DNA of 56,203 bases from Candidatus Methanoplasma glyptotermitis (GTDB taxonomy: Archaea; Thermoplasmatota; Thermoplasmata; Methanomassiliicoccales; Methanomethylophilaceae): assembly GCA_031267895.1 (NCBI GenBank), contig JAIRYF010000030.1, positions 1-56,203 of the forward strand, in the 5' to 3' direction. Every line of letters starts with the position of its first letter. Within the stretch, counting starts at the first letter, position 1. This document shows positions 961-5,550 of this stretch, one piece after another. A program made the translations under genes and the position numbers. The notes beneath the pieces were generated by a model, which searched no databases, was not told where the DNA came from, and worked only from the letters and a program-made list of their open reading frames with translations.

Positions 961-1001
961 TTCGAATACACCTTATGCGCTTAGGGCAAAACAATAAGGA
1001 G
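941..1001 (+). promoter_or_regulatory. Promoter and ribosome binding site of the LRR surface gene
   Basis: An AT-rich TATA-like stretch (ATAAATCATATATTC, 941-955) is followed by a near-palindrome GTGT-TCGAAT-ACAC (958-971). A strong ribosome binding site AAGGAG (996-1001) lies 9 bases before ATG 1011. The RBS is the main reason for placing the true start at 1011 rather than at GTG 1160. Confidence 0.5.
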
Positions 1002-1010
1002 CAAAACATC

Positions 1011-3574
1011 ATGAATCTTAAATCTCCGGAAGGAATTATTCCTTCCGCAAAAACATCCGCCCGCCCATACAGGGGGGGGGGGGAAATTACAATTTCCCCA
1101 GCCGTCTGAATATAACTGTATTATTTGCTGTTGCTCTGTTTCTCGCAGCGGCATTCTTTGTGACATGCTCTGAACCGAATGAGTCGGATGCCGTCACGAC
1201 CTTTACCATCGACGGTGTCAAATACAACGTGGCCTCCGGTTCGGAAGTTTCCGCAGTCGGATACGACAGTGGCGATGCGTCTACCGTCCTGGAGATACCG
1301 TCAACCGTGAATGACGGTGGTTCGGATGGCGGAACAGATTACAGCGTGACGTCCATCGGCGTCAGTGCATTCCGATACTTCTACGATCTGGAATCCGTAA
1401 ACATACCTAACAGCGTGACATCCCTCGGCAATTATGCATTCGCTGGATGCACCAGCCTGACTTCAATCGTCATACCTGACAGCGTGAAAACCATCGGCGA
1501 AAATACATTCTACGGTTGCGCCGATCTGGAATCCGTGACAATAGAAGGTGACGTGAAAACCATCGGCAACGGTGCATTTCAGGACTGCACCAGCCTGACC
1601 TCCATCGAGATACCGAAAAGTGTGGAAACCATCGGCGAAAATACATTCTACGGTTGCACCGATCTGGAATCCGTGACAATAGAAGGTGACGTGAAAACCA
1701 TCGGCAATTATGCATTCGCTGAATGCACCAGCCTGACTTCAATCGTCATACCTAACAGCGTGAAAACCATCGGTGCAGGAGCATTTATGGGGACTGGTCT
1801 GACCTCCATAGTCATACCGGAAGGCGTTACATCTATCGGATATGATGCATTCGCACAATCCAGTCTGACATTCCTAACAATACCTAGCAACCTGACATCC
1901 TCCGATACTGATTTTAATGGTTGCTACAGCCTGACATCCGTGACAATATACGGCGATGCGGAATCCATCGGCGCAGTATTCTTCGGCAACCAAACCCTGG
2001 AAACCGTTGAGATACTCGGCAATGTAACAAGCATAGACAACAATGCATTTCAGGATACTTCAAACTTGAAATCCGTGACAATTCAAGGTAACGTGGAAAC
2101 CATCGGCTACGCTGCATTCTTTGGCTGCACCGGCCTGACTTCAATCGTCATACCTGACAGCGTGAAAACCATCGATGAAGAAGCATTTTCAGGGGCTGGT
2201 CTGACATCTTTAGCCATACCAAACAGTGTGACAACCATTGGCGGGGGTGCATTCAGCGGCTGCGGGAGCCTGACCTCTATAGTCATACCTGACAGCGTGA
2301 CATCCATCGGCGGAAGTATGTTCAGCGGCTGCGCCAGTCTGGAATCCGTGACAATAGAAGGTGACGTGGAAACCATCGGCGACTATGCATTCTCCTACTG
2401 CACCAGCCTGACATCCATCGTCGTACCAGACAGCGTGATAACCATCGGCCTCGGTGCATTTCAGGACTGCACCGGTCTGGAATCCGTGACAATAGAAGGT
2501 GACGTGGAAACCATTGGCATGAGTGCATTCAGCGGCTGCGGGAGCCTGACCTCCATAGTCATACCCGACAGTGTGACAGAGATTGGCACCTATGCGTTCC
2601 GTGACTGCACCAGCCTGACATCCGTGACCGTAACAGGCGGACTCGGCGATGGCGGAAAAACAATCGCGAACGGAGTAATAGATACGTGTTTCAAGAGCGG
2701 AACGGACTGGAAACTGCCCGGAATGTCCGATGACACCATAGTGTCTCTGTTCCTTCCCGATATTGTTTCATCGGATTATGGTCCCGGCAACATAGCGGGA
2801 GGTTCCGGAAGAGAACTGATATACAGCGATACCAAATTCACATCCGGTGCTGAGTCAGGCTGGGCATACACCGTAACCCTTGCGGAGGAAACAGGAATAT
2901 CAGGTTTCGGATACACTGTAATCAGAGGCGGTTCTGTTATCCGTACAGAACAGTACGCAGAACCGTTCACAGTAGACCAAGGAGATACTCTTGTCATAAC
3001 CGCTGTACTGTCGGAAGGTTACGCATTCGTTTCTTGGTCCGGAGGTTCCGATTCCCGCACCAACCCGCTGACGGTACCGGAAGTAACGAAGAATATCTAT
3101 CTGACTGCAGCCGGAGGACTGATCGAGTATCGTGTTGCGTTTGATTTCAGTTCTGACTGTACAGTATACGTTAACGGTTCTCCCGTATCATCGTCGCCGA
3201 TAGGCGTTGCCGGAGGAGGAAGCCTTTCGTTTGCCTTACAGACACCCGAAGGATACTCTGCTGTTCCTGCCGTAAGCGGAATAGCAGACCTTCTTAAACA
3301 ATCTGACGGATCTTACGTTATACGGAACATACACTCTAACCTGAGTGTAACCGTAACCGTCTCCGCGGACATCGGAAACGGTTCGGATAACGGCTCAGGA
3401 AATGAAGGTTCCGGAAACGGTCCCGATGCAAGTCCGGGAAACAGCAATGATTCCGGCGGAGACTCCTCCGACGGTATACCTCTTTGGATTCCCGTTTTCA
3501 TAGCCGGAGCGTTCCTTGCATGTATAGCGGCAGCCGCAGCAGGACATACCGTCCTTAAGCGCAGGAAGGACTGA
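1011..3574 (+). CDS. BspA-like leucine-rich-repeat surface protein, frame broken at a G12 tract
   Basis: Predicted cell-surface, membrane-anchored adhesin-type protein. The open frame from 1160 (GTG) holds about 20 BspA/TpLRR (LRR_5) repeats of roughly 23 residues, with the pattern LTSIVIPDSVKTIG..AF.GC. Two beta-rich domains (about residues 540-730), a Gly/Ser/Asn-rich linker, a transmembrane helix and an RRKD tail follow. The 1160 frame lacks a signal peptide. Upstream, AAGGAG (996-1001) precedes ATG 1011, whose frame runs into 12 Gs (1072-1083) and stops at TGA 1107 after 32 residues. One extra G, or two fewer, joins ATG 1011 to the main frame and adds a hydrophobic helix (LFAVALFLAAAFFVTCS) as signal sequence. 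The gene is therefore OFF in this copy if the sequence is right; a homopolymer sequencing error is the alternative. A hairpin terminator follows. Confidence 0.8.
1027..1047 (+). other. Perfect hairpin just inside the LRR coding region
   Basis: CGGAAGGAA (1027-1035) and TTCCTTCCG (1039-1047) pair perfectly over 9 bp around a TTA loop. It starts 16 bases after the A of ATG 1011 and ends 24 bases before the G tract, so it could affect translation initiation or slippage at the tract. Confidence 0.5.
1072..1083 (+). repeat. G12 homopolymer (candidate phase-variation tract)
   Basis: Twelve consecutive Gs sit between the start codon at 1011 and the signal-peptide helix. I saw no other G run longer than about six in the window. 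Length 12 puts the start out of frame; 10 or 13 would put it in frame. Confidence 0.85.
1493..1707 (+). repeat. Near-identical tandem DNA repeat, 138-bp period
   Basis: The segment at 1493-1569 recurs at 1631-1707 with one mismatch (gcgcc versus gcacc). The offset is 138 bases, exactly two 23-residue LRR units. DNA-level identity, not just protein similarity, suggests recent duplication or gene conversion and makes the array prone to length changes. Confidence 0.75.
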
Positions 3575-3616
3575 TAAGAAACCGGAAAACATATGATAAC
3601 CGGTTCTCCGAACATA

Positions 3617-3644
3617 AGAGACCGCCGCACTCGCGGCGGTCTCT
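3617..3644 (+). terminator. Hairpin terminator after the LRR gene
   Basis: AGAGACCGCCGC (3617-3628) and GCGGCGGTCTCT (3633-3644) form a perfect 12-bp stem with an ACTC loop, 43 bases after the stop codon. A pyrimidine-rich, T-rich stretch follows (about 3660-3710). Confidence 0.75.
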
Positions 3645-4155
3645 ATCTCCGTTCGGCATTTCTATGCGTTTTCTTTTCTTCCTCTCTTTCTATCACTTTT
3701 TTCTTTTGATATTCACCCGAACACCTGTTATTTTGCTCCGAGAAACATCCTGTTCCGGATAATGCCGATCCTGCAATGACGGACCCCTCGCCCAAACATG
3801 CAGGATTGCAGAATAGACGGAGTTTGCGTGAGACACGGACTTTGTACTCTTCGGAAGAAGGTCTGTTTCCGAACTGTGTTCAGCGGTTCCCTCGGTGTTT
3901 GACATCTGGATACCGCGACTTTTTCTATCGATTCATATGGATTCATCGTGGGTGTGCTACAGAACCGCGATGTTCGGAAGATCGAAACTCCGCCGTTCGC
4001 TGCGTATGCAGGCACGGCGGCATACGCTTTTTCACAACGGACGCTTTTATTCTCTTCTCTCCAACCATGTTCGGAAGAAGAAGGGGAAGAAACGGTTTTC
4101 GAATTCAGTTCATCTGTACACTCTGATTTAATACCCATACATCCATCGCTCGCGC
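3645..4155. other. Intergenic region with no recognisable gene
   Basis: About 510 bases between the LRR terminator and the polyphosphate kinase gene. Overlapping short frames on both strands are Cys/Arg/Ser-rich, match no family I recognise and lack convincing ribosome binding sites. The first 60 bases are strongly pyrimidine-rich. No tRNA or other RNA gene was recognised. Confidence 0.5.
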
Positions 4156-5550
4156 ATGGATGCACTGATCCCGAGTGGGACCGTAGCCCGTCTGAACCGA
4201 CTGCAGCAGCGTTTGCTTCAAAAACAGATGCCCGTGCTGATCTTATTTGAAGGAAGCAGCGGAAGAGTGATCGGCAGGGTATGCAATGAACTGATAAGAT
4301 GTCTTGAGCCGAGAGGCGTGAGCTATAAACATTTCGATCCTTCCGATCAGGACGGCCCCCGGACGATGCTGGACTTCTTGCAGCATACTCCCGGGAAAGG
4401 ACAGATCGGCCTCTACGATAGGTCCTGGTACTCCTCGATGATAAAGAAATGCAACGTGAAGGAAAAAGAAAAGGAACTGGACAGAATGCTTGACATATGC
4501 AATGATTTCGAACGGTACCTTACAGATAACGGTGTCCTGCTGATCAAAATAGTTCTGAGGGCCGAACCGTCGGGAGAATACGTGCAGGAATATGGTTCCG
4601 GCGGACCGAAAAGGTCCTTCCTTTCTGCCGACTACATAGATCCGCTGGAGTATCGGGATGTTATGTTCGACCGCGTTTATGTGAGAACCGACACAGAATA
4701 TGCTCCGTGGAACAGTATCTCCGCAAGGGGTGTCGGAGAGACCGTGCTTAAAACGGCACATACAATAATAAAAGCTGTCGAAGACGGATTGGAACGGAAG
4801 CCTGCCGCCGCGCCGCTGTCTGATATAGAACGTATTTATTCCAACCCCCGGCACGGCACCGAATCCTGCTGCGTATGCACGCCGTATGAGGATGCCATAA
4901 ACGAACTGTCGGAAAAACTGGGGGAACTGCAGATGGATCTGTCCCTGAGCGATCGTTCGCTGGCTGTGTGCTTTGAAGGATGGGATGCCGCAGGCAAGGG
5001 ATCGTGTATAAAACACCTCTGCCACGCACTCAATCCGAGAGGCTATGAAGTGTTTCAGACAAAGGCCCCCTCCGATGAAGAGATGAAACACACATACCTG
5101 TGGAGATTCTGCGGCAGTGCCCCCCGGAAGGGTCACATAACTGTCTATGACAGGACGTGGTACGGAAGGATGATGGTCGAACATGTGGAAGGACTTTGTA
5201 CGGACGAAGAATACGGAAGATCTTCGTCAGAAATAAACAGCTTTGAGCACTTGATGGCCGACAGCGGAACAATCATACTGAAATTCTGGTTGGATATCAC
5301 TCGGGAAGAACAGCTGAAGAGATTCGAAAAAAGGAAGAACGATCCTCTGAAGCAATGGAAAATAACCGATGACGATTGGCGCAACCGTTCCAAATGGGAT
5401 GAGTATGATGTACACGTAGATACAATGATGGAATCCACTAATACACAATACGCCCGATGGACTGTCATCGAATCCGGCAATAAGAAGTGTGCGAGGGTCA
5501 AGGTACTCCAAACAGTCGTCGAAACCCTCGAAAAAGAATTAAATGATTAA
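4156..5550 (+). CDS. Two-domain polyphosphate kinase 2 (polyphosphate:AMP phosphotransferase type)
   Basis: 464 residues with two fused PPK2 domains, the class II layout that phosphorylates AMP with polyphosphate. The C-terminal domain (about residues 240-464) is complete: Walker A-like FEGWDAAGKGS, DRTWYGRM lid motif and the KFWLDI strand. The N-terminal domain keeps the fold signature (LYDRSWYSSM), but its P-loop reads FEGSSGRVIG and has lost the GKG Lys, so it is probably non-catalytic. This fits what is known for class II enzymes, where only the second domain is needed. The start at ATG 4156 is the first in frame. Monocistronic. Substrate preference (AMP or ADP) cannot be read from the sequence. 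Confidence 0.88.
   Translation: MDALIPSGTVARLNRLQQRLLQKQMPVLILFEGSSGRVIGRVCNELIRCLEPRGVSYKHFDPSDQDGPRTMLDFLQHTPGKGQIGLYDRSWYSSMIKKCNVKEKEKELDRMLDICNDFERYLTDNGVLLIKIVLRAEPSGEYVQEYGSGGPKRSFLSADYIDPLEYRDVMFDRVYVRTDTEYAPWNSISARGVGETVLKTAHTIIKAVEDGLERKPAAAPLSDIERIYSNPRHGTESCCVCTPYEDAINELSEKLGELQMDLSLSDRSLAVCFEGWDAAGKGSCIKHLCHALNPRGYEVFQTKAPSDEEMKHTYLWRFCGSAPRKGHITVYDRTWYGRMMVEHVEGLCTDEEYGRSSSEINSFEHLMADSGTIILKFWLDITREEQLKRFEKRKNDPLKQWKITDDDWRNRSKWDEYDVHVDTMMESTNTQYARWTVIESGNKKCARVKVLQTVVETLEKELND

Follow-up and report, generated by a model that had tools for sequence, protein, structure and literature searches.

Multi-gene switching through repeat tracts is well known in pathogenic bacteria. In Neisseria, several Opa paralogs have CTCTT repeats where the signal peptide is encoded, and NgoAV of N. 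gonorrhoeae, a type I HsdS, varies in phase through a poly-G tract. In the archaeal world, phase variation of adhesion proteins has a precedent in phiCh1, where it is viral rather than part of a cellular repertoire and relies on recombination (inversion) instead of repeat slippage. A review of archaeal recombinases (PMC8371274) cites Klein et al. 2012 for phase variation in this haloarchaeal virus. The poly-G/C phasomes of Campylobacter, Helicobacter and Neisseria are covered by a 2025 review, according to which archaea have yet to be surveyed (PMC11868660); a cut-off of 9 has been used for meningococcal poly-G tracts (PMC7371114), and a survey including 18 archaeal genomes reported mostly poly-A/T tracts (PMC2831843). 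In the open-access literature, to which our search was confined, subscription papers being outside its scope, no account of tract-based phase variation within archaeal cells came up. A prior sequence-only reading of this DNA called G-tract switching little described in archaea.

The window analysed here, contig C22 at its full length of 56,203 nucleotides, belongs to a genome of 1.717 Mb in 72 contigs that is 97.9% complete. The genome encodes McrA (E 1.2e-60), and the organism is therefore a methanogenic archaeon, placed tentatively in the order Methanomassiliicoccales by its kinship. At the locus under study, all elements that the sequence-only reading had described were present: ATG 1011 preceded by AAGGAG, a run of exactly 12 Gs, and a stop after 32 residues (Table 1). 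Tract length decides the reading frame of this gene. One G more or two fewer joins the start codon to the LRR frame, as had been proposed, so that 13 or 10 Gs give 854 or 853 aa, while 11 Gs give 53 aa and 12 give 32 aa. With 12 Gs, the window gene is hence OFF in the assembly. The signal peptide likewise lies in the upstream continuation of the LRR frame, where it had been placed, and is in frame with the ATG at 10 or 13 Gs.

Table 1. Features of the G-tract gene, in window coordinates.
Feature	Position	Strand	Remarks
AAGGAG, Shine-Dalgarno-like	996..1001	+	9 nt 5' of start codon; also before most module copies
OFF-state frame	1011..1109	+	ATG, 32 codons via G tract, TGA
Perfect 9-bp hairpin in leader, 3-nt loop	1027..1047	+	some paralogs keep it, others have a weak one or none
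G12 tract	1072..1083	+	ATG joins surface-protein frame at 10 or 13 Gs
Palindrome GGGGAAATTACAATTTCCCC	1080..1099	+	takes in last four Gs of tract; kept in nearly all of 45 copies
Post-tract surface-protein frame, 829 codons + stop	1085..3574	+	signal peptide, BspA-type LRR_5 repeats, InlB-B-like repeat, C-terminal membrane anchor
Signal-peptide segment LNITVLFAVALFLAAAFFV	1106..1162	+	readable only in frame tied to ATG by 10 or 13 Gs
Best-scoring LRR_5 stretch (PF13306)	1349..1738	+	one of four stretches; protein total E 5.7e-138, 453 bits, cut-off 27.7
Weak Flg_new_2 / divergent InlB B-repeat (PF18998)	2963..3109	+	E 6.5e-05, slightly below curated cut-off
C-terminal hydrophobic anchor + basic tail IPLWIPVFIAGAFLACIAAAAAGHTVLKRRKD	3476..3571	+	similar ends in other family members

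By its LRR_5 repeats, the encoded protein falls among the BspA-like LRR surface proteins. Its signal peptide and C-terminal anchor predict that, at 10 or 13 Gs, the product would be an exported, membrane-anchored protein of ~850 aa.

The window gene is one of 45 copies of a shared module. The module comprises AAGGAG, a start codon, a leader mostly of 50-70 bases, a tract of 10-13 Gs, a palindrome of the type GGGGAAATTATAATTTCCCC, a signal peptide of the type LNITVLFAAALFLAAAFFVTYSEPNESDA and a large surface protein, so that the dependence of frame on tract length at the window gene recurs as the same layout in the other copies. LRR_5 repeats were found in every module protein tested and CarboxypepD_reg domains in some, and most of the members assembled in full have a C-terminal membrane anchor followed by a charged tail. 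No fewer than 12 copies come within 250 bp of the end of a contig or stretch, as expected if a repeated module breaks assembly; the number of distinct loci is therefore approximate, and it is for these copies that both the length of the tract and the identity of the partner gene are most in doubt. By analogy, this family layout appears most like that of the Neisseria Opa genes, a surface-protein family whose copies all have one kind of hypermutable repeat in the leader region before the mature protein and switch independently by frame. The Opa system differs in being bacterial, in using a pentamer repeat, in encoding outer-membrane barrels and in having about a dozen loci; here, the host is an archaeon, the repeat is poly-G, the products are LRR proteins and the copies number ~45.

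The copies share a frame rule as well as a layout. In 36 of the 41 copies with an assigned start, the gene is ON when the number of Gs, n, equals 1 mod 3, despite varied leader lengths, which means that leader indels keep the frame. Two of these 41 starts (L089 and L100+8859) are loosely assigned; L100+8859 read from the ATG at 52 stays ON. Beyond the tract, pN/pS in the module was 0.16 in the ON frame versus 1.00 and 1.83 in the other two. These values point to purifying selection on the post-tract module in the predicted ON frame only, and the downstream gene is intact and bears this signature in its signal-peptide module. Selection on the leader peptide was also considered and set aside, as its signal was weak and inconsistent. 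Two further family members provide natural controls for the switch: L093:4160 (-) has no tract and reads directly from an ATG into a frame of ~690 aa that is always in frame, while L067:6942 (+) has an interrupted tract and is out of frame.

The same features bear on the idea that an internal start 3' of the tract gives constitutive expression and that the G run is untranslated or regulatory. A GTG at 1160 does open an 804-aa frame in the window gene, yet initiation there would lose the signal peptide; no other part of the family is as well conserved, and this part is under selection in the ON frame. The window gene contains no ATG, GTG or TTG ahead of the last codon of its signal-peptide segment, and most copies, the window gene among them, lack such a codon before the signal peptide. 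We consider expression from an internal start very unlikely.

Tract length differs between close paralogs. Among ten paralog pairs within this single genome that have no more than 4 mismatches over 105 flanking bases, six differ in the length of the tract; the family copies are homologous, so counts of this kind are not independent. Lengths of 11 and of 12 are both frequent in the family, which argues against a consensus error hiding true lengths of 10 or 13 with all genes on. Such an error, or decay of the OFF genes into pseudogenes, is what one would suspect in a draft genome with error-prone homopolymers in which 36 of 41 copies read OFF. Against both stand post-tract frames that remain open for hundreds of codons and the purifying selection on the signal-peptide module, and a one-base error is irrelevant to the genome-wide excess of tracts described below. 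Consensus error or decay is thus very unlikely.

We propose that the G12 tract is a contingency switch and that slipped-strand phase variation of a surface repertoire is the best explanation, a reading drawn from sequence that we hold to be very probably correct. The tract would be translated as part of the 5' region of a BspA-like LRR gene, after the start codon and before the signal peptide, where replication slippage would add or remove Gs and so change the reading frame. With 10 or 13 Gs, the cell would make the exported, anchored ~850-aa protein, with 12 a 32-aa peptide, and with 11 a 53-aa peptide. The same switch module would act before ~45 family genes, with tracts also in restriction-modification and solute-binding genes. 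The phase variation suggested by the sequence-only reading gains far more support than a single locus could give, from the 45 module copies, the frame-keeping leader indels and the selection confined to the ON frame, and further from the scarcity of internal starts, the length differences between paralogs and the tracts in restriction-modification genes. Tracts, frames, selection and gene types are all explained together if slipped-strand phase variation operates. On this basis, tract lengths should change often and reversibly, expression should follow the tract frame, and the family proteins should reach the cell surface. Variation of this kind would probably serve to change surface proteins at random in the face of viruses, hosts or competitors, each cell keeping most of the genes off.

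Long G tracts are a property of the whole genome. Counting either strand, G runs number 94 at a minimum length of 10 and 97 at a minimum length of 9, against ~2.4 G or C runs of at least 10 expected under a first-order Markov model; both the 12 Gs of the window gene and the genome-wide total are therefore longer or more numerous than chance predicts. In the stretches around tracts, G/C run lengths are sharply bimodal, with 55-59 runs of six per strand, 5-6 of seven, nearly none of eight or nine, and a second peak at 10-13. A/T runs in these stretches have no comparable second peak. In a sample of 390 genomes from the phylum, this genome ranks first with 94 tracts, a congener, G014, comes second with 63, and no other genome in the sample exceeds 16; two further congeners outside the sample have 37 and 21. 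A simple ORF test gave no clear protein-gene fusion for ~36 tracts outside the module family, so the coding switch does not hold for every tract. Tracts of this kind may have other modes of action, or none, and a general tendency of G runs to persist in this genome is likely.

This pattern resembles the phasomes of Campylobacter, Helicobacter and Neisseria, where many G tracts of similar length also occur in surface and restriction-modification genes. It differs from them in its archaeal host and in a module of leader, tract, palindrome and signal peptide copied across one family. We know of no single bacterial genome with as many tracts as this one. The genome is a candidate for multi-locus phase variation in a methanogen, in which surface and restriction-modification genes are affected together, as in bacteria.

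Loss of mismatch repair was considered as a specific cause of the tracts and rejected, since NucS is missing almost throughout the order. Searches of this genome with MutS_V and NucS gave no match, while control genomes did; the MutS search covered this genome only. NucS is absent from nearly the whole order, tract-free genomes included, and lost repair alone therefore does not explain the tract excess. Missing repair is a permissive background rather than the specific cause.

Most switchable genes are OFF in the assembly. By consensus length, 5 of 41 family copies are ON, as are 2 of the 13 other clear tract genes (11 OFF), a set that leaves out the doubtful fusions L053 and L083. The total of 7 ON among 54 lies below one third (one-sided binomial p = 6e-4), and lengths of 10 or 13, which are in frame, make up a smaller share of the family (3/45) than of the other tracts (20/50; p = 2e-4); because the copies are related, these p-values overstate the evidence for an OFF excess. 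The OFF state may be favoured for most genes at any one time.

The deficit of in-frame lengths also weighs indirectly against the main rival to DNA-level switching, in which the G run acts as a slippery site. RNA polymerase or the ribosome would then slip there, perhaps aided by a hairpin, and give constant low expression whatever the DNA length. Slippage of this sort would leave tract lengths unconstrained, yet in-frame lengths are less frequent in the family than in the other tracts. What it would explain best is the conserved palindrome, a potential hairpin directly 3' of the tract that includes the tract's last four Gs and recurs in nearly all copies. Several palindrome variants have no more stable synonymous coding, a result of the synonymous-coding test that is suggestive, although the copies are related and the apparent selection on the hairpin, among homologous copies, is not independent evidence. 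The DNA frame leaves most loci OFF, and these are nevertheless intact, which would also fit. We judge a slippery site unlikely as the sole account; transcriptional or translational slippage could coexist with phase variation.

The sequence-only reading had drawn attention to another hairpin, the one between start codon and tract. It is real and forms a perfect 9 bp, and only part of the paralogs keep it. On comparison of the copies, the more conserved element of the two is the palindrome 3' of the tract, not the upstream hairpin. We found no tract-palindrome element in viral contigs; a match in one cyanobacterial MAG was taken as chance.

A fuller version of the phase-variation reading would be an archaeal system akin to antigenic variation, in which selection keeps most of ~45 surface proteins OFF, few are displayed per cell, and the palindrome acts in switching or expression. 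We offer this version tentatively and think it rather more apt to fail than to hold.

Outside the module family, tracts occur in genes of surface and restriction-modification type, with matches to LRR_5, MethyltransfD12, Methylase_S and Peripla_BP_2. A D12 adenine methylase (MethyltransfD12, L037) contains one, as do two Peripla_BP_2 binding proteins (L044 and L073), two further LRR_5 proteins (L095, ON; L101, OFF), two zinc-ribbon membrane proteins recognised by eye (L091, ON; L099, OFF) and a ResIII-like gene (L050) whose family match is weak and under the cut-off. In a type I HsdS (Methylase_S) at L039:10000 (-), a G10 tract stands between the two specificity domains, so that the frame determines whether the subunit is a half or a full one. 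NgoAV is alike in that its tract has this effect; the present case is archaeal and known from sequence alone. Three small genes that look ribbon-helix-helix-like by eye (L075:8456 (-), L081:1662 (-) and L102:7774 (+)) each have a G11 near the 3' end, and in L075 and L102 a membrane-protein-like gene follows within ~60-220 bases. At L035:75-3836 (-), a frame of 1254 codons with no Pfam match lies 3' of a G12 and is OFF in the assembly.

Congeners carry tracts behind other leaders. In G014, a different repeated leader (ATGACAGCATCAAGA or variants) precedes the tract in about a dozen copies (L104-L152). Most cassettes of this type lead into frames of only ~40 codons, and several large frames (L111, L141 and L147) have in succession a start of 5-7 residues, the tract and an arginine-rich signal peptide. 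In G003, large frames have tracts in their N-terminal portions. None of 16 congeners had the exact tract-palindrome element. With other leaders in congeners and the exact element absent, it is the architecture that is repeated and not the sequence. Also in G003, L177:4002 (+) has a G11, in frame, within a frame longer than 1300 aa and resembling, by eye, a restriction-system helicase.

The polyphosphate-kinase-like gene next to the window gene is present in 16 of the 17 genus genomes searched, this genome counted. We examined its neighbourhood in ten congener regions, several of which end early at contig ends. None contains a G tract of at least 8, nor does any show a tract-bearing LRR gene next to the polyphosphate-kinase-like gene, and the comparison of tract length across related genomes that the sequence-only reading had proposed thus met no orthologous tract at the window locus in these regions. 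Beside the polyphosphate-kinase-like gene (window 3574-4156; L194 and L197), congeners have other surface-protein-like genes, recognised by eye, or none. The flank of this gene is an apparent site of surface-gene turnover.
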